Shown piece by piece: positions 47,321 to 56,274 of a stretch of DNA of 64,000 bases (its first letter is position 1; the number at the start of each line of letters is the position of its first letter). The notes under the pieces were generated by a model. The model had not been told where the DNA came from, made no database searches, and saw only the letters and a program-made list of their open reading frames with translations. Both the position numbers and the translations under genes were made by a program. This DNA comes from Rhodospirillaceae bacterium (GTDB lineage: Bacteria; Pseudomonadota; Alphaproteobacteria; Dongiales; Dongiaceae), in NCBI GenBank assembly GCA_008012315.1, contig SSEL01000007.1, positions 120,539 to 184,538 of the forward strand, read 5' to 3'.

Positions 47321-47360
47321 AATGACATCTCGTCATTCATTCACCTATGGAGTTCCTTTC

Positions 47361-48371
47361 ATGAAGCGTCTCTTTCTCGGTCTGGTCGGGGCCGCCGGCC
47401 TGGCCGCGGCCTCCCTGGCGCAGGCGCCTGCCGCCAAGGCCGATACCTCGCTGCTGAATGCCTCTTTCGATGTGGGCCGCGAGCTTTATGCCGATATCAA
47501 CCCTGCTTTCAAAACCTATTGGAAAGGCAAGGCCGGCGAGGACGTTTCGATCGAGCAATCCCATGCCGGCACCTCCAAGCAGGCCCGGTCGATCCTGGAA
47601 GGCATGCAGGCCGATGTGGTGACCTTCAACCAAGCCCCCGATATCGACATGCTGGTGGCTGGCGGCGCGGTACAGGCGGGTTGGGAACAGAAATTCCCCG
47701 CCAATGCCTCGCCTTACTATTCCTTTCCGGCCTTCCTGGTGCGTGCGGGCAACCCGAAGCACATCAAGGATTGGAGCGATCTGGCGCGTGACGACGTGCA
47801 GGTGGTCTTCCCCAATCCGAAGACCTCGGGCAATGCGCGTTATACCTATCTTGCCGCCTATGCCGATGCGCTGCAGAAGAATGGCGGCGACCAGGCCAAG
47901 GCCCAGGAATTCGTCAAGAAGGTCTTCTCCCATGTGCCAGTCTTCGATACCGGCGGCCGTGGCGCGACCACGACCTTCGTCGAACGCGAAACCGGCGACG
48001 TGCTGATCACTTTCGAAGCCGAAACCCGCGGCATCGCCAAGCAATACGGCACCGACAAATATGAAGTGGTGGTGCCGCAGACCAGCCTGAAGGCCGATTT
48101 CCCGGTCGCCGTGGTCGACAAGGTGGTCGATGCCAAGGGCACCCGCAAGACGGCCGAGGCCTATCTCAATTTCCTCTACCAGCCGGAATGCCAGGACATC
48201 ATCGCCCAGCATTTCTACCGGGTGAATGATGAGGCCGTGGCGAAGAAATATGCCGACCAGTTCCCCGCCGTGAAGCTGCTGACTGTCGATGACGTCTTCG
48301 GTGGCTGGGCCAAGGTGAACAAAGAGCATTTCGCCAAGGGCGGCATTCTCGACACGCTGTTCGTTCAATAA
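47361..48371 (+). CDS. sbp: sulfate ABC transporter substrate-binding protein
   Basis: LLNASFDVGRELYADINPAFKTYW, IEQSHAGTSKQARSILEGMQADVVTFNQAPDID, VVFPNPKTSGNARYTYLAAYADAL. Confidence 0.95.
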   Translation: MKRLFLGLVGAAGLAAASLAQAPAAKADTSLLNASFDVGRELYADINPAFKTYWKGKAGEDVSIEQSHAGTSKQARSILEGMQADVVTFNQAPDIDMLVAGGAVQAGWEQKFPANASPYYSFPAFLVRAGNPKHIKDWSDLARDDVQVVFPNPKTSGNARYTYLAAYADALQKNGGDQAKAQEFVKKVFSHVPVFDTGGRGATTTFVERETGDVLITFEAETRGIAKQYGTDKYEVVVPQTSLKADFPVAVVDKVVDAKGTRKTAEAYLNFLYQPECQDIIAQHFYRVNDEAVAKKYADQFPAVKLLTVDDVFGGWAKVNKEHFAKGGILDTLFVQ

Positions 48372-48403
48372 GGCCCTAATTAACGAGGTATTGGCGCACG
48401 ATC

Positions 48404-49273
48404 ATGGCTTTGGTAGATGCCAGTCTCGGCAAATCGGCCAGGATATGGGGCCGCCGGCGTCGTGTCCTGCCGGGTTTCACCCTGACGCTCGGCTGCACGC
48501 TGCTCTATCTTGCCGTGATCGTGCTGCTGCCGCTGGCGGCGCTGATCCTGAAATCCGCCAGCGTCCCCTTCGATGAATTCCTCGGCAACATCATCTCTGC
48601 CCGGGCGCTCGCGACCTATCGCCTGACCTTGGGGACGGCGCTCGGCGCGACGATATTCAACGGGCTGTTCGGCCTGATGCTGGCCTGGGTGCTGGTGCGC
48701 TATGACTTCCCCGGCCGCCGGCTGCTCGACGCCATCGTCGATCTGCCTTTCGCCTTGCCGACCGCCGTGGCCGGCATCGCCCTGACCGAGCTGTTTGCGA
48801 AGAACGGCTGGCTGGGCGAGCCGCTGGCGAAGCTCGGCATCAGCGTCGCCTATACGCCGCTCGGCATCGCCATCGCCATGGCCTTCACCAGCCTGCCTTT
48901 CGTGGTCCGCACCGTGCAGCCGGTGCTGGAAGACCTGGATGAAGAGGTGGAGGAGGCGGCTCACTCGCTGGGCGCCAGCGATGGCGCGATTCTCTGGCGC
49001 GTCATCCTGCCCTCGATCTTCCCGGCCTTCCTGGCGGGCTGCAGCCTCGCTTTCGCCCGCAGCCTGGGCGAATTCGGCGCCGTGATCTTCATTGCCGGCA
49101 ACCGGCCGATGCAGACCGAAATCACTGCGCTGCTGACCTTCATCCGCCTGGAGGAATACGATTACGGCGGTGCGGCGGCGCTTTCCGTCGCCATTCTTTT
49201 CGCCGCTTTCGTGCTTCTCCTCGTCACCAATATCGTTCAGGCCAGGGCGCTCCGTTATGCTGACCGGCGTTGA
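48404..49273 (+). CDS. cysT: sulfate ABC transporter permease CysT/CysU
   Basis: DLPFALPTAVAGIALTELFAKNGWLG, SLGEFGAVIFIAGNRPMQTEI. Confidence 0.95.
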   Translation: MALVDASLGKSARIWGRRRRVLPGFTLTLGCTLLYLAVIVLLPLAALILKSASVPFDEFLGNIISARALATYRLTLGTALGATIFNGLFGLMLAWVLVRYDFPGRRLLDAIVDLPFALPTAVAGIALTELFAKNGWLGEPLAKLGISVAYTPLGIAIAMAFTSLPFVVRTVQPVLEDLDEEVEEAAHSLGASDGAILWRVILPSIFPAFLAGCSLAFARSLGEFGAVIFIAGNRPMQTEITALLTFIRLEEYDYGGAAALSVAILFAAFVLLLVTNIVQARALRYADRR

Positions 49274-50141
49274 CAGTCTAAGCCCCGACCGTGCGGTTGC
49301 GTCGCCCCGCCGTCATGTGCGGGCCGGCGACGGCAAATGGCTGCGCCGCAGCCTGATCATCATCGTCGTCCTGCTATCGGCACTGGTGCTGCTGGCGCCG
49401 ATCGTGGTTATCTTCATTCAGGCCTTTTCCGCCGGCATCGCCGTCTATGCCAGCAAGATCGTCGCCTCGGAAACCTTGCATGCGATCTTGCTGACTGTGT
49501 TGACTGCCCTTGTGGTGGTGCCGCTCAATGCAATTTTCGGCATCATGGCGGCCTGGTCGATCACCAAGTTCAATTTTCCCGGCCGCAAGCTGCTGATCAC
49601 GCTGATCGAGATTCCCTTCTCGGTGTCGCCGGTCGTGGCCGGTGTCTGCTATCTCTTCCTGTATGGTGCGCGCGGCCTGCTCGGTCCCTGGCTGGAAGCC
49701 CATGACATCCGCCTGATGTTCTCGGTGCCGGCGATCTTCCTGGTCAGCCTCTTCGTCACCTGTCCCTTCGTCGCCCGCGAGCTCATTCCACTGATGCAGA
49801 CCCAGGGCAGCGATGAAGAAGAAGCCGCGACGACTCTTGGCGCCAACGGCTTGCAGATGTTCCTGAAGGTAACGTTGCCCAATATCAAATGGGCGCTGCT
49901 TTACGGCGTCATCCTCTGCAACGCCCGGGTCATGGGCGAGTTCGGTGCGGTTTCCGTGGTTTCCGGCAGCATCCGTGGCCAGACCAATACCTTACCGTTG
50001 CAAATCGAGCTGCTTTACAACGATTACGATGCGGTGGGCGCCTTTGCGGCAGCCTCCACGCTGACCTTCCTGGCGGTGGCCACCCTGGTCATCAAGACCA
50101 TCATCGAACGCCGGACCGGCCAGCGCGGCCTCGGTCACTGA
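49257..50141 (+). CDS. cysW: sulfate ABC transporter permease CysW
   Basis: IPFSVSPVVAGVCYLFLYGARGLLGPWL, CNARVMGEFGAVSVVSGSIRGQTNTLPLQIELLYNDYDAVGAFAAAS. Confidence 0.95.
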   Translation: MLTGVDSLSPDRAVASPRRHVRAGDGKWLRRSLIIIVVLLSALVLLAPIVVIFIQAFSAGIAVYASKIVASETLHAILLTVLTALVVVPLNAIFGIMAAWSITKFNFPGRKLLITLIEIPFSVSPVVAGVCYLFLYGARGLLGPWLEAHDIRLMFSVPAIFLVSLFVTCPFVARELIPLMQTQGSDEEEAATTLGANGLQMFLKVTLPNIKWALLYGVILCNARVMGEFGAVSVVSGSIRGQTNTLPLQIELLYNDYDAVGAFAAASTLTFLAVATLVIKTIIERRTGQRGLGH

Positions 50142-50330: not shown

Positions 50331-51560
50331 ATGGCCGGCAAATTCATTCAAATCGCAGCTCATGACGGCGGCACGTTTCGTGGCTATCTGGCTTTGCCGC
50401 GCGGCGGCAAGGGACCGGGCATCGTGCTCTGCCAGGAAATCTTTGGCATCAATGCCTATGTCCGCGAGGTTGCCGATTACTATGCCGAGGAAGGCTATGT
50501 GGTGCTGGCGCCCGATCTCTTCTGGCGCATGGAGAAGGACGTCGATCTCGGCTACACGCCGGAAGACTGGCAGAAGGCTTTCGGCTTCTTCCAGAATTTC
50601 GATATCGATCTCGGCATCAAGGATATCGCCAGCAGCGTGAAGGCCCTGCGCGCCATGCCCGACGTCGCCGGCAAGGTCGGTGCGCTCGGTTTCTGCCTGG
50701 GCGGCAAGCTGGCTTATCTCGCCGCCGCGCGGGCCGGTGTCGATTGTGCCGTCGGCTATTACGGCGTCGGCATCGAAGGCGCGCTGGATGAGAAGATCAA
50801 TGTGCCGCTGGTGCTGCATATCGCCGGCGAGGATCAGTTTGTCCCCAAGGCGGCGCAGGAGCAGATTCGCCAGCATTTCAAGAACCAGCCCCAGGTCGAG
50901 ATCTATACCTATCCCGGCACGGACCATGCCTTTGCCCGGACCGGCGGCGATCATTACGACAAGCCGGCGGCGATGATGGCGCATTCGCGCTCGATCGCCC
51001 TGTTCCGCAAGGTGATGGGACCGCATTACGATCTCTCGGCCCTGTGGGACAAGCATTGCGAATATGAATTCGGCATTCGCGATGTCGATGCCACCATGGG
51101 CACGATGGTGGCGGAGCCCTATGTCAACCACATCCCGACCATGACCGGTGGGGTCGGCTACAAGCATCTGAAGCGCTTCTACAAGCATCACTTCGTCAAC
51201 AGCAATCCCAAGGACACGAAGCTCATTCCGATCTCACGCACCATCGGCGCCGACCGGGTGGTCGACGAGATGCTGTTCTGCTTCACCCATGACTGCGAGA
51301 TCGACTGGATGCTGCCGGGCGTGAAGCCGACCGGGAAATATGTCGAGATTCCATTGATCGCGATCATCTCGTTCCGTGGCGACAAGCTCTATAACGAGCA
51401 TATCTATTGGGACCAGGCCTCGGTCCTGGTGCAGATCGGCCTGCTCGATTCCAAGAGCTTGCCGGTCGCCGGTATCGAACAGGCAAAGAAGCTGCTCGAT
51501 GAAAAGCAACCGTCGAACACCTTGATGAAGAAATGGAAGGAGAGTGAGGGCAAGGACTGA
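50331..51560 (+). CDS. dienelactone hydrolase fused to a SnoaL/NTF2-like C-terminal domain
   Basis: GFCLGGK nucleophile, GEDQFVP, GTDHAFAR triad; C-terminus GGVGYKHLKRFYKHHFVNSNPKDTKLIPISRTIGADRVVDEMLFCFTHDCEIDWMLPG. Confidence 0.88.
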   Translation: MAGKFIQIAAHDGGTFRGYLALPRGGKGPGIVLCQEIFGINAYVREVADYYAEEGYVVLAPDLFWRMEKDVDLGYTPEDWQKAFGFFQNFDIDLGIKDIASSVKALRAMPDVAGKVGALGFCLGGKLAYLAAARAGVDCAVGYYGVGIEGALDEKINVPLVLHIAGEDQFVPKAAQEQIRQHFKNQPQVEIYTYPGTDHAFARTGGDHYDKPAAMMAHSRSIALFRKVMGPHYDLSALWDKHCEYEFGIRDVDATMGTMVAEPYVNHIPTMTGGVGYKHLKRFYKHHFVNSNPKDTKLIPISRTIGADRVVDEMLFCFTHDCEIDWMLPGVKPTGKYVEIPLIAIISFRGDKLYNEHIYWDQASVLVQIGLLDSKSLPVAGIEQAKKLLDEKQPSNTLMKKWKESEGKD

Positions 51561-51609
51561 GCCCGTCGGCTGGGGCCGGCCCGTCACGCATGTCATTCCA
51601 GGAGGGAAA

Positions 51610-53115
51610 ATGAAGATCATCAGTAATCCGATCCGACAGAAACTGGCGGCGGGCGATTGTGTCAGCTGCCATTGGCTGGTGCTGGGGTCGCCGTCGGTGG
51701 CGGAAGTCATGGCCCAGGGGCAGCCCGATGCGATGGTCTTCGATCTCCAACACGGCCTGTGGACGCGGGAGACATTGGAACATGGCATCGGTGTCGTCCG
51801 CGGATTGACGACGCCGCTTTGCCGGGTGGCGGAGAATTCCCCCCATGCCATCGGCAGCGCGCTGGATGCCGGCGCCATGGGCGTCATCGTGCCTTTCGTC
51901 GAGACGGCCGACCAGGCGGAAGCCGCCGTCGTCGCGGCGAAATACCCGCCGCGCGGCATGCGCTCCTTCGGCAATGTGCGGCCGATCTTCGATGCCGCGT
52001 CTTATGTCAACGAGGCCAATGCCAATACCTTCGTCGCGGTGATGATCGAGACCGCCAAAGGCGTGGAGAACGCCGCGGAGATCGCCGCCACGCCGGGCAT
52101 CGACATGATCTTCATCGGTCCGTTTGATCTGTCCCTGTCGCTCGGCACTTTCCCGGATTTCGGGCCGAAGCATCAGGATGCGATCCTGCGGGTCAAGGCG
52201 GCGGCGGAAACGGCCGGCAAGAATGCCGGCATTTTCACCGCGCATGGCATGATGGCGGCGGATCGCCGGACACAGGGTTTCCAGATGGTCGTGCTGGCCA
52301 ACGACCAGGACCTGCTGCAGGGCCCGTCGAAAGCGCAGGTGAGCCGCTTTGCCGCCCGTGACGGCGAGGATCTGGTCGATGGCCGCGTCGCTCTGGTGAG
52401 CGGCGCCAATCGCGGCATCGGCAGCGAGATCGTCCGTGTTCTGCTGGGCGCCGGCGCCCGGAAGATTTACTGCGCGGCACGCGATGTTACGGCCTTGCGG
52501 CCGCTCATCGAGGAAGCGCCGGACCGCTTGCAGGCGCTTGAGCTCGACATCACCGACGAGGCGCAGATCGCTGCTGCGGCGAAAGCCTGCGGCGATGTCG
52601 ACCTGCTGGTGAACAATGCCGGCATCAATCACAACACGCCGCTCTTCGCCATTGCCGACACGGCCAATGCCCGGCGCGAGATGGAGGTGAATTATTTCGG
52701 CACGCTCAATATGTGCCGCGCCTTCATCCCGGTCCTGAAGACGAATGGCGGCGGCGCCATCGTCAACATGATCTCGATCCTGGCCCATGCCAATCTGCCG
52801 CTGATGGGATCGCTCTGCGCCTCCAAGGCGGCGCTGCTCAGCCTCACCCAGGCCTTGCGGGCAGAGCTGAAAGCGCAAGGCACGCATGTGATGGCGGTGC
52901 TGCCTGGCGCGGTCAATACCGACATGACCAAGGGTTTCGATATTCCGAAGATTGCGGCGGCCTATGTCGCGAGCGCCTTGCTAGACGGGCTGTCGCTGCG
53001 CCAGGAAGAGGTCTATCCCGGCGATATGGCGACCAGCATCGTTTACGGGATGCTCAACAATCCGAAGGAAACGGAATGGGGCCTGGGCAGCTATCTGCCG
53101 CCGAACGCGCCCTAA
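51610..53115 (+). CDS. bifunctional fusion: HpcH/HpaI aldolase domain + short-chain dehydrogenase/reductase domain
   Basis: One uninterrupted ORF with GGAGG RBS: aldolase (DAMVFDLQHGLWTRETL, GVIVPFVETADQAEA, MIETAKGVENAAEIAATPGIDMIFIGPFDLSLSLG), then SDR from ~52381 (GRVALVSGANRGIG, DLLVNNAGIN, CASKAALLSLTQALRAE). Confidence 0.9.
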   Translation: MKIISNPIRQKLAAGDCVSCHWLVLGSPSVAEVMAQGQPDAMVFDLQHGLWTRETLEHGIGVVRGLTTPLCRVAENSPHAIGSALDAGAMGVIVPFVETADQAEAAVVAAKYPPRGMRSFGNVRPIFDAASYVNEANANTFVAVMIETAKGVENAAEIAATPGIDMIFIGPFDLSLSLGTFPDFGPKHQDAILRVKAAAETAGKNAGIFTAHGMMAADRRTQGFQMVVLANDQDLLQGPSKAQVSRFAARDGEDLVDGRVALVSGANRGIGSEIVRVLLGAGARKIYCAARDVTALRPLIEEAPDRLQALELDITDEAQIAAAAKACGDVDLLVNNAGINHNTPLFAIADTANARREMEVNYFGTLNMCRAFIPVLKTNGGGAIVNMISILAHANLPLMGSLCASKAALLSLTQALRAELKAQGTHVMAVLPGAVNTDMTKGFDIPKIAAAYVASALLDGLSLRQEEVYPGDMATSIVYGMLNNPKETEWGLGSYLPPNAP

Positions 53116-53126
53116 TTCAGCAAGCC

Positions 53127-53804
53127 CTAATTCAACAATAGGCCAGCGAGTTCGCCGAGGCTGCTCAACACGGTGGCCCGGCGATCCAGCCCATATTCCA
53201 TCGGCTGGCCGCTCCGGTTGACCCAGAAGGTCCGAAACCCGAACTGCGCGGCGCCGGCCGCGTCCCAGGCATTGGACGAAACGAAGGCGCAGGCGCGCGC
53301 ATCGCTCAGCTTGAAGCGATCGAGTGCGTGCTGGTAGACGCGCGCATCGGGTTTGTAGATGCCGACCTCGGCAACGGAAATCGCCGCATCCAACAGATCG
53401 CCGAGCCCGGCGGCGGCCGTGAGATCGGCGAGCAAGTCAGGATCGCCGTTTGACAGCAGCGCTCTTGGCATGCCGGCGGCCTTCAACTGCTGGAGGAGGG
53501 GCGGAACCTCGGGATAGGCCGTGAGCCGCCGATAGGCCGCCAGCAGGCCGTCCCGCTGTTGCTTGTCCTGGTCGAGACCATAGGTCGCCAAGGCGACATC
53601 CAGTGCCTCGCCGGTCAGCTCCCAAAAGCTGCGATATTGCCCGCGCAGGCTCAGCGTCCAGGTATATTCAAGCTGCTTCTGTCGCCACAATTGCGAGACG
53701 TCATGGGCGATCGGACCCAGACGTGCCTTCATCGCGGCGGCTGGCGCGTGGATATCGAACAGCGTTCCGTAAGCATCGAAGAAGATCGTCTGAACGCCAG
53801 CCAT
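53127..53804 (-). CDS. haloacid dehalogenase type II (HAD superfamily)
   Basis: TIFFDAYGTLFDIHAPA, ALLSNGDPDLLADL, KPDARVYQHALDRF, ACAFVSSNAWDAAGAAQFGFRTFWVNRSG. Confidence 0.93.
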   Translation of the reverse strand: MAGVQTIFFDAYGTLFDIHAPAAAMKARLGPIAHDVSQLWRQKQLEYTWTLSLRGQYRSFWELTGEALDVALATYGLDQDKQQRDGLLAAYRRLTAYPEVPPLLQQLKAAGMPRALLSNGDPDLLADLTAAAGLGDLLDAAISVAEVGIYKPDARVYQHALDRFKLSDARACAFVSSNAWDAAGAAQFGFRTFWVNRSGQPMEYGLDRRATVLSSLGELAGLLLN

Positions 53805-53811
53805 TGTCCCC

Positions 53812-54054
53812 TCAGGTGAAGGCATTGAAGGTAATGATGGTCTGGGTGTCCTTGACATTCGGCAAGGTCTGGATCTGGCCGGTGACGAAGTGGCCGACAT
53901 CCATCTCGGTCGGCAGATTGCATTTCACCAGCAGATCGTAGACGCCCGAAATGGAATAGACCTCGCCCACCTGCTCGACCGTATCGAGGGCATTGGCAGC
54001 CACCTCATAGGCCGTGCCCGGCTCGCATTTCACCAGAATGAAGATCGGCCGCAT
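53812..54054 (-). CDS. stand-alone Lrp/AsnC ligand-binding (RAM) domain protein
   Basis: RPIFILVKCEPGTAYEVAANALDTVEQVGEVYSISGVYDLLVKCNL; no HTH. Confidence 0.88.
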   Translation of the reverse strand: MRPIFILVKCEPGTAYEVAANALDTVEQVGEVYSISGVYDLLVKCNLPTEMDVGHFVTGQIQTLPNVKDTQTIITFNAFT

Positions 54055-54429: not shown

Positions 54430-55566
54430 TCATCGCAAAGGCTTTGGATCGGCAGCGGCCGACTTGATCAGCGCGATGACATTGTCGCCCACCGACAAAT
54501 TCAGGTCCTGCAGCGACTTCCGCGTGATTCGCGCCCAGATCGGGCTGCCGATATCCACTTGCACATCGACGAAGGAGTCGTCGCTTGCGACAATTTGACT
54601 GACCCTGCCGGGCAATTGGTTCAGGATGCTGATCCCATTTATCGGTTGCCGGGCCAAGGCGACGTCGCTGGCGAGGATTCGCAGGTTGAGATGCTCGCCA
54701 ATGGCATGGGGTAAACGGCCAACGCGAATCGTCCCCTGGCCGGTCGTTTCGCGCCCCGTCGTCCCGTGCCCCGTCCCACTGGAAAAACCCAGCCGGCTGA
54801 GCCCGCTGCCATCATCCTGCGCCAGCACGGTGGCATTGATCACGGCCCCTGCTTCGGCATTGTTCGTCAGGTTCGGCAGATCGAGGCGGCCGAGCACGCT
54901 TTCCACATCGCCATAGGCCGCCAGTTTGCCCTCGACGATCAGCGCCACCCGGTCGGCCAGGCGCAGGATTTCGTCCGGATCATGGCTGACATAAACGATC
55001 GGAATGGAGAGTTCCGCGTGCAGCCTTTCGATAAAGGGCAGGATCTCCGATTTCCGCTGCACATCGACGGCGGCCAGCGGCTCGTCCATCAGCATCAGGC
55101 GCGGATTGGCGAGCAAGGCGCGGCCGATGGCGACGCGCTGTTTCTCACCGCCACTGAGGGCGACGATGCGGCGGTCGAGCAAGGCGCCGATGCCAAGCAG
55201 CTCGACAATCTGATCGAAGCCGATATCGCTTTCGTCCTTGCCATAGCGCTGATGGGTCAGGCGCCGGCCATAGAGCAGGTTGCCACGCACGCCGAGATGG
55301 GGAAACAGGCGCGGCTCCTGGAAGACATAGCCGAGGCGACGTTGTTCCGGCGGGATATCGATACCGGCCCGGCGATCGAACATCGTCTGGCCATCGACGC
55401 GGATGACCCCGTCATCCGGCCGGTTGAGGCCGGCGAGCCAATTGAGGATCGAGGTCTTGCCGGCGCCGGACGGCCCGAACAAAGCGAGGATGCCTTTCGT
55501 CTCCACCTTGAGGTCGATCTTCAGCTCGGTCTTGCCGAGGCGCTGCGTGGCATCGATTTCAATCAT
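54430..55566 (-). CDS. modC: molybdate ABC transporter ATP-binding protein
   Basis: LFGPSGAGKTSILNWLAGL, LSGGEKQRVAIGRALLANPRLMLMDEPLAAVD, C-terminal MOP-like domain. Confidence 0.93.
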   Translation of the reverse strand: MIEIDATQRLGKTELKIDLKVETKGILALFGPSGAGKTSILNWLAGLNRPDDGVIRVDGQTMFDRRAGIDIPPEQRRLGYVFQEPRLFPHLGVRGNLLYGRRLTHQRYGKDESDIGFDQIVELLGIGALLDRRIVALSGGEKQRVAIGRALLANPRLMLMDEPLAAVDVQRKSEILPFIERLHAELSIPIVYVSHDPDEILRLADRVALIVEGKLAAYGDVESVLGRLDLPNLTNNAEAGAVINATVLAQDDGSGLSRLGFSSGTGHGTTGRETTGQGTIRVGRLPHAIGEHLNLRILASDVALARQPINGISILNQLPGRVSQIVASDDSFVDVQVDIGSPIWARITRKSLQDLNLSVGDNVIALIKSAAADPKPLR

Positions 55567-55578
55567 CGATCATCTTCC

Positions 55579-56274
55579 TCACCGCATGTCCTGGCCGCGC
55601 CGGATCAGCCAGAGATTGACGCGATGCGCCAGGATCAGGGCGGCAAAGGCGATGATGATCGAGATGATGGTCAACCGCATGGCACCGGCCTCGCCATCCG
55701 GCATCTGGATCAGGGTCTCGATGGCCAAAGGCAAGGTCTGGGTCTCGCCGGGGATATTGGAAACGAAGGTGATGGTGGCGCCGAATTCGCTGAGCGACCG
55801 GGCAAAGCCGAGGATGGTGCCGGCGATGATCCCCGGCATGGCGAGCGGCAGGGTGATGCTGAGAAAGACCCACCAGCGGGCGGCGCCCAGGCAGCGCGCT
55901 GCCGCCTCGAGGCGATGATCGGCGGCATCGAAGGAAACCCGGATGGCCCGCACGAAAAGCGGCAGGGCCATCACGGCCGAGGCGAGCGCCGCGCCTTTCC
56001 AGGTGAAGATGACCGTGATGCCGAGATATTTCAGCAACAGGCTGCCCAGAATGCCCTTGCTGCCGAACATCAGGAGCAGGCCGTAGCCGACGACGACCGG
56101 CGGCAGCACCAGCGGCAGATGCACCACGCAATCCAGCATCGTCTTGCCGGGGAATTGCTTGCGCGACAGCAGCCAGGCCAGGAAGATGGCGATCGGCAGG
56201 GTGACCAGCGTGCTCCAGAAGGCGACTTTCAGGCTGAGCAGCGTCGCCGTCAGTTCAACGTCGCTCAGCTCCAT
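55579..56274 (-). CDS. modB: molybdate ABC transporter permease
   Basis: DCVVHLPLVLPPVVVGYGLLLMFGSKG, GFARSLSEFGATITFVSNIPGETQTLPLAI. Confidence 0.94.
   Translation of the reverse strand: MELSDVELTATLLSLKVAFWSTLVTLPIAIFLAWLLSRKQFPGKTMLDCVVHLPLVLPPVVVGYGLLLMFGSKGILGSLLLKYLGITVIFTWKGAALASAVMALPLFVRAIRVSFDAADHRLEAAARCLGAARWWVFLSITLPLAMPGIIAGTILGFARSLSEFGATITFVSNIPGETQTLPLAIETLIQMPDGEAGAMRLTIISIIIAFAALILAHRVNLWLIRRGQDMR

Follow-up and report, generated by a model that had tools for sequence, protein, structure and literature searches.

A rare aldolase-SDR fusion in Dongiaceae with leucine at the position of the catalytic tyrosine

In the textbooks, catalysis in the very large superfamily of SDR enzymes depends on a tyrosine. 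What, then, does an SDR do that carries leucine in its place and is joined to an aldolase in a single protein? A gene of the family Dongiaceae, located on a stretch of 64,000 nucleotides (hereafter the window), raises this question. The answer we prefer, and to which we give about even chances, is a bifunctional catabolic aldolase-reductase, co-transcribed and working with an enzyme of the dienelactone hydrolase (DLH) type.

Two complete domains in one open frame

The original prediction for this locus described a full class II pyruvate-aldolase-type domain, joined without a stop to a complete SDR domain. This was borne out. Pfam places HpcH_HpaI at residues 22-234 (2.8e-32) and adh_short at residues 259-442 (6e-42) of a 501 aa protein, whose frame is unbroken from the ATG at 51610 to the stop codon ending at 53115 (Table 1). 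A longer alternative of 523 aa, with a GTG start at 51544, runs into the upstream gene, and an AGGAGG precedes the ATG, which makes the latter the likelier start. The junction between the halves, about seven residues long, contains neither a methionine nor a ribosome site, and therefore the SDR half is not easily produced alone. A frameshift or assembly artefact was rejected, because the same fused frame is present in 13 further genomes. Homologues split by a frameshift into two separate genes were looked for, and none was found; in four fusion matches a TAA falls upstream of the ATG, not between the domains. The structure model of the whole fusion was poor (pLDDT 73, pTM 0.55), and thus we leave the orientation of the domains unclaimed.

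Table 1. Positions in the window of the fusion gene, its parts and its DLH neighbour, with the loci of a second fusion type
Feature	Position	Strand	Remark
DLH-family gene, 409 aa (DLH + conserved C-terminal ~170 aa)	50331..51560	+	49 bp upstream of fusion
Shine-Dalgarno AGGAGG	51600..51605	+	for fusion gene; from sequence
Aldolase-SDR fusion gene, 501 aa	51610..53115	+	domains and 13 orthologous fusions
HpcH/HpaI class II aldolase half	51610..52356	+	residues 1-249; Pfam 22-234
Aldolase His48 (general-base position)	51751..51753	+	14/14 fusions
Aldolase Arg72	51823..51825	+	14/14 fusions
Aldolase metal ligand Glu147	52048..52050	+	14/14 fusions
Aldolase metal ligand Asp173	52126..52128	+	14/14 fusions
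Short junction between halves	52357..52377	+	no Met or Shine-Dalgarno for separate SDR start
SDR half	52378..53112	+	NCBIfam NF006118; fold as 5U4S
SGANRGIG cofactor motif	52399..52422	+	Arg268 = BcSDR Arg15 (NADP phosphate contact)
Asn340 = BcSDR Asn83 (benzoate contact)	52627..52629	+	Asn in 37/38 of clade, rare outside
SDR tetrad Asn361	52690..52692	+	column comparison
SDR tetrad Ser389	52774..52776	+	column comparison
Leu402 (CTC), catalytic Tyr position	52813..52815	+	sequence, codons, alignment
SDR tetrad Lys406 (AAG)	52825..52827	+	column comparison
ABC ATPase-SDR loci			L013, L022, L025-L028, L030, L036, L104-L106, L108, L110, L111, L113

Judged from its sequence, the aldolase half is a complete HpcH/HpaI class II aldolase, for which cleavage activity is predicted. 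The window protein scores 112.2 bits against PF03328 (curated cut-off 25), and D45, H48, R72, D86, E147 and D173 are intact in all 14 fusions. The profiles of the named equivalogs (GarL, HpaI and 2-keto-3-deoxy-L-rhamnonate aldolase) all gave scores below cut-off, with GarL (129 bits, cut-off 407) and HpaI (123 bits, cut-off 369) far under threshold. A tree of 19 aldolases unites all fusions with the stand-alone aldolase of one genome (G017; support 100/100), leaving the monophyly of the fusions open on the aldolase side. The closest stand-alone aldolase (locus L124) adjoins a tautomerase fused to a SnoaL/DUF4440 domain (L124:10557-11126, reverse strand), and an aminotransferase-like gene comes after it.

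The fusion is genuine, and this combination of domains is rare. Within the window's family (GTDB), 11 of 17 genomes carry it, Dongia deserti and Dongia mobilis among them. A 387-genome sample of the class added three Alphaproteobacteria from other families (G050, G262 and G101), for a total of 14 fusions, the window and 13 other alphaproteobacterial genomes. A 399-genome sample of the phylum, searched at E 1e-90, had the fusion in no genome outside the window's family. All 14 group together in the SDR tree with moderate support (87/77), where the fusion apparently represents one event.

Leucine at the tyrosine position

The SDR half has the Rossmann fold, the NNAG motif and the TGxxxGxG-type motif (here SGANRGIG) of classical SDRs. 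The Asn-Ser-Tyr-Lys tetrad is incomplete: Asn361, Ser389 and Lys406 are present, and the Tyr is Leu402, at a spacing of 13 from Ser389. Motifs, alignment and fold thus agree with what had been predicted for this half. Its score against NF006118 is 296.4 bits, above the curated cut-off of 279. When modelled alone with a 46-row alignment, it reached a pLDDT of 95.7 and a pTM of 0.93, and its best match among solved structures was 5U4S (E 5.8e-29, TM 0.90/0.95), the next one outside that entry being at 1.2e-18.

The 5U4S protein is BcSDR of Burkholderia cenocepacia J2315, in which Leu144 replaces the Tyr, a replacement conserved in Burkholderiales (PMC11614110). NADP+ and, unexpectedly, benzoate occupy its site, and an ordered water takes the place of the missing Tyr; the paper raises neither a fusion nor an operon or adjacent gene (PMC11614110). 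Leu402 falls on Leu144 in both the alignment and the fold comparison. Since the latter is already published, the Leu-for-Tyr exchange is a known subtype trait, neither new nor peculiar to the fusion. The remaining residues of the BcSDR type are also present in the window protein, with Asn340, Ser389, Lys406 (as LxxxK) and Arg268 corresponding to BcSDR Asn83, Ser131, Lys148 and Arg15. Both NADP-contacting Arg residues and the benzoate-contacting Asn are kept, and from these conserved contacts the SDR half would be expected to bind NADP and an aromatic acid.

All Leu SDRs lie within one clade of 38 rows (83/91), which has 23 Leu and 15 Tyr members. Ser389, Arg268, Asn361 and Lys406 are kept in every one of the 23. 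For the aldolase fusions, conservation of the Leu, which the original prediction had singled out for checking, holds in part: eight of the 14 have Leu, and in the other six, which come from Dongia mobilis and its relatives, exactly this position is Tyr. A restored Tyr elsewhere had been named as evidence against the prediction; no compensating one was seen in a column comparison of the Leu, Tyr and outer groups. A single Leu clade was rejected (p-AU 2.9e-5). In a two-state model that uses branch lengths only, assumes outgroup rooting and leaves the fork at the clade base open, Leu is ancestral at the aldolase-fusion node (P about 0.99 or more). The simplest history is that the Dongia mobilis genus had a Leu ancestor and regained Tyr. 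The Tyr fusions of this genus (L006-L011) read GANGGIG, not GANRGIG, so that Arg268 has become Gly and the Arg contacting the NADP phosphate is lost. This hints at an altered cofactor preference, possibly a switch to NAD.

Does the Leu mark a decaying catalytic site, in a fused SDR that is on its way out? That a supposedly essential residue is gone would fit this explanation. However, the Leu is kept through five codons (CTC, CTG, CTA, CTT and TTG) across Alpha-, Beta- and Gammaproteobacteria, and in our sample Tyr is replaced by Leu alone, never by Phe or His. In addition, strong purifying selection acts on both halves: in pairwise comparisons inside the Leu genus g4, the SDR half has a dN/dS of 0.10-0.20, close to that of the aldolase half. 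The two halves are also equally conserved. Codon diversity and low dN/dS led us to reject a degenerate SDR, and decay, already largely refuted, is extremely improbable. A sequencing error as the source of the Leu was also rejected, given the five codons within the SDR clade and the fused frame in 13 other genomes.

Another possibility is that the clade has evolved a stable catalysis without Tyr, based on a Lys-bound water and acting on the same substrate as the Tyr relatives. Leu and Tyr would then have switched several times, even in fused orthologues, and would be interchangeable here. We put this idea forward as a tentative one, with the chances somewhat against it.

Neighbouring genes and a second fusion partner

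The DLH-family protein encoded upstream of the fusion has its Glu, Cys, Asp and His intact. Its C-terminal part (residues 240-409) is 72-83% identical across distant loci and has no Pfam match. The gap of 49 bp suggests that DLH and fusion are co-transcribed. A DLH homologue (53-76% identity) occurs at 29 of 38 clade loci and at 0 of 75 loci of outer relatives; of these 75, 42 are flanked by 4.5 kb or more on each side. Seven of the nine clade loci without DLH have truncated flanks; the other two, in the fusion genomes L116 and L117, genuinely lack it, with no DLH within about 9 kb. DLH is also found without a Leu-clade SDR, in pCAR1 and in Skermanella. On the carbazole plasmid pCAR1 (L138, 13117-18647), the same DLH type has a Rieske dioxygenase cluster and an SDR as neighbours; assignment of this SDR to the Leu type was rejected, as it is of the ordinary kind, with Tyr (YPASK).

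Stand-alone relatives occur in catabolic surroundings. Caballeronia Sq4a has a Leu SDR, closely orthologous to BcSDR, between an amidohydrolase and DLH, in a run with 3-hydroxyanthranilate 3,4-dioxygenase, RidA, 2-keto-4-pentenoate hydratase and acetaldehyde dehydrogenase, which we take to resemble an nba-type meta pathway. In Caballeronia SBC2, a ring-hydroxylating dioxygenase is encoded close to a Leu SDR-DLH pair. In Dongia, ABC importer genes come after the fusion, and in the window no aromatic-catabolism genes are evident near it. A HAD (haloacid-dehalogenase-like) gene (53127-53900, reverse strand) converges on the fusion and, as read from the sequence, ends 11 bp past its stop. Upstream of DLH are a sulfate-type ABC binding protein and permeases (47322-50141), and downstream an ABC ATPase and permease (54430-56274), molybdate-like by eye; neither group is conserved beside the fusion among the relatives examined.

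The Tyr and Leu forms have the Asn340 contact and the DLH neighbour in common, hence the pathway tolerates either residue. This would also fit an SDR half that performs a non-redox or internal-redox step on the same acid, such as isomerisation, dehydration, epimerisation or a retro-reaction, with NADP bound and Tyr unneeded. We consider such a step improbable, as no new acid/base residue specific to the Leu group is present in all its members; the best candidate, Asp472, is found in 15 of 23 and is Ala in BcSDR.

The same clade has a second fusion partner. Leu SDRs are placed C-terminal to a DppF/OppF-like (Dpp-type) ABC ATPase, in one frame, in Arenicellales, Thioglobus, Acidiferrobacteraceae, Rhodobacteraceae and Hyphomicrobiales. 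These fusions occur in at least 15 genomes, with 11 Leu and four Tyr among 15 distinct rows. The two fully annotated loci are dipeptide-type operons with a binding protein, two permeases and the fused ATPase-SDR, and one of them has a second ATPase. In most rows the SDR boundary has an ATG, preceded by a purine-rich sequence that resembles a Shine-Dalgarno, so that these genes may yield a free SDR as well as the fusion. Grouping all fused SDRs into one clade was unsupported, yet not rejected (p-AU 0.11).

One SDR clade fused to two unrelated partners, with the catalytic Tyr missing and the cofactor and ligand contacts kept, brings to mind a pseudo-oxidoreductase. The Leu SDR would then be a scaffold or a sensor of ligand and NADP(H), which tunes its fused partner, the aldolase here and the ABC ATPase elsewhere. 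Against this speak the invariant active-site Ser and Lys of the Leu members, the occurrence of Tyr in both fusion types and the lone SDR-DLH pairs in catabolic operons, as well as the start codon kept at the SDR boundary of the ABC-SDR genes, from which a free SDR may also come. We regard the sensor or scaffold role as unlikely.

A proposed aldolase-reductase and its known relatives

The original prediction had left the choice between an aldol-cleavage/redox bifunctional enzyme and a structural, channelling SDR module. The former remains plausible. A purely structural or channelling role is less likely, because the SDR half has a low dN/dS and retains the Asn, Ser and Lys, both NADP-contacting Arg residues and the benzoate-contacting Asn. 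HpcH/HpaI aldolases end meta-type aromatic pathways by cleaving 4-hydroxy-2-oxo acids. In the aldolase-reductase that we favour, DLH would open a lactone or an ester, formed by an intermediate of the ring-cleavage or sugar-acid type. From a 4-hydroxy-2-oxo acid, the aldolase half would release an aldehyde together with pyruvate or a related 2-oxo acid, and the fused SDR half, with NADP(H), would reduce or oxidise this aldehyde or a related carbonyl close to its point of release. The fusion itself may serve coupling or channelling. Without the Tyr hydroxyl, the proton relay of the Leu form would need a substitute, which could most simply be a water held by Lys406 together with Ser389, as suggested by the ordered water of BcSDR exactly at the site of the Tyr oxygen; Asn340 and Ser389 would position the substrate. 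Leu would be the ancestral state of the fusion, with one Dongia lineage later regaining Tyr. The data establish the fusion, its residues, the phylogeny, the gene linkage and the purifying selection; substrates, reaction direction, channelling and the role of the water are what we infer here. The spread of the fusion, the kept residues, the 5U4S ligands, the low dN/dS, the DLH linkage, the Caballeronia clusters, the Leu ancestry at the fusion node and the rejection of a single Leu clade count in favour of an aldolase-reductase. The missing aromatic genes near the window fusion, the two fusion genomes without DLH and the DLH genes elsewhere without this SDR count against it, as does the near loss of activity that is usual when the Tyr of an ordinary SDR is mutated.

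Literature searches on the aldolase-SDR fusion found nothing relevant. Within reach of our searches, the fusion, the second fusion partner, the DLH link and the toggling between Leu and Tyr in one orthologous enzyme look undescribed. The Leu and Tyr fusions form a natural series of orthologues with the same partner domain, neighbouring hydrolase and substrate-contact Asn, and a relative with a solved structure. The question left by the BcSDR paper, how such an enzyme can function without its Tyr, thus becomes directly testable. Furthermore, the fused aldolase and the linked hydrolase narrow the search for a substrate, which the lone BcSDR did not. If catalysis without Tyr were true, a residue treated as indispensable throughout a huge superfamily would be interchangeable here.

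Among known proteins, BcSDR is the top match of the SDR half by sequence (45% identity) and fold, with the same Leu, but it is a stand-alone protein of 237 aa, whereas the window SDR is fused to an aldolase. The family NF006118 (PRK08264.1-4) takes in both Tyr and Leu members and is silent on fusions. The aldolase half is like HpaI, GarL and SwHKA (6R62) in its whole fold and catalytic residues; these are stand-alone, while the window aldolase is fused and neither a GarL nor an HpaI equivalog. The neighbouring protein shares the DLH domain with Glu36, Cys, Asp and His of the Pseudomonas dienelactone hydrolase (1DIN), and differs from it by the additional conserved C-terminal part. DmpFG and BphIJ are aldolase-aldehyde dehydrogenase complexes at the end of meta-cleavage pathways. 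As in the fusion, an aldolase is coupled to a dehydrogenase, although the complexes are non-covalent and belong to other aldolase and dehydrogenase families. By analogy only, the fused reductase could be a covalent counterpart of DmpFG-type channelling.
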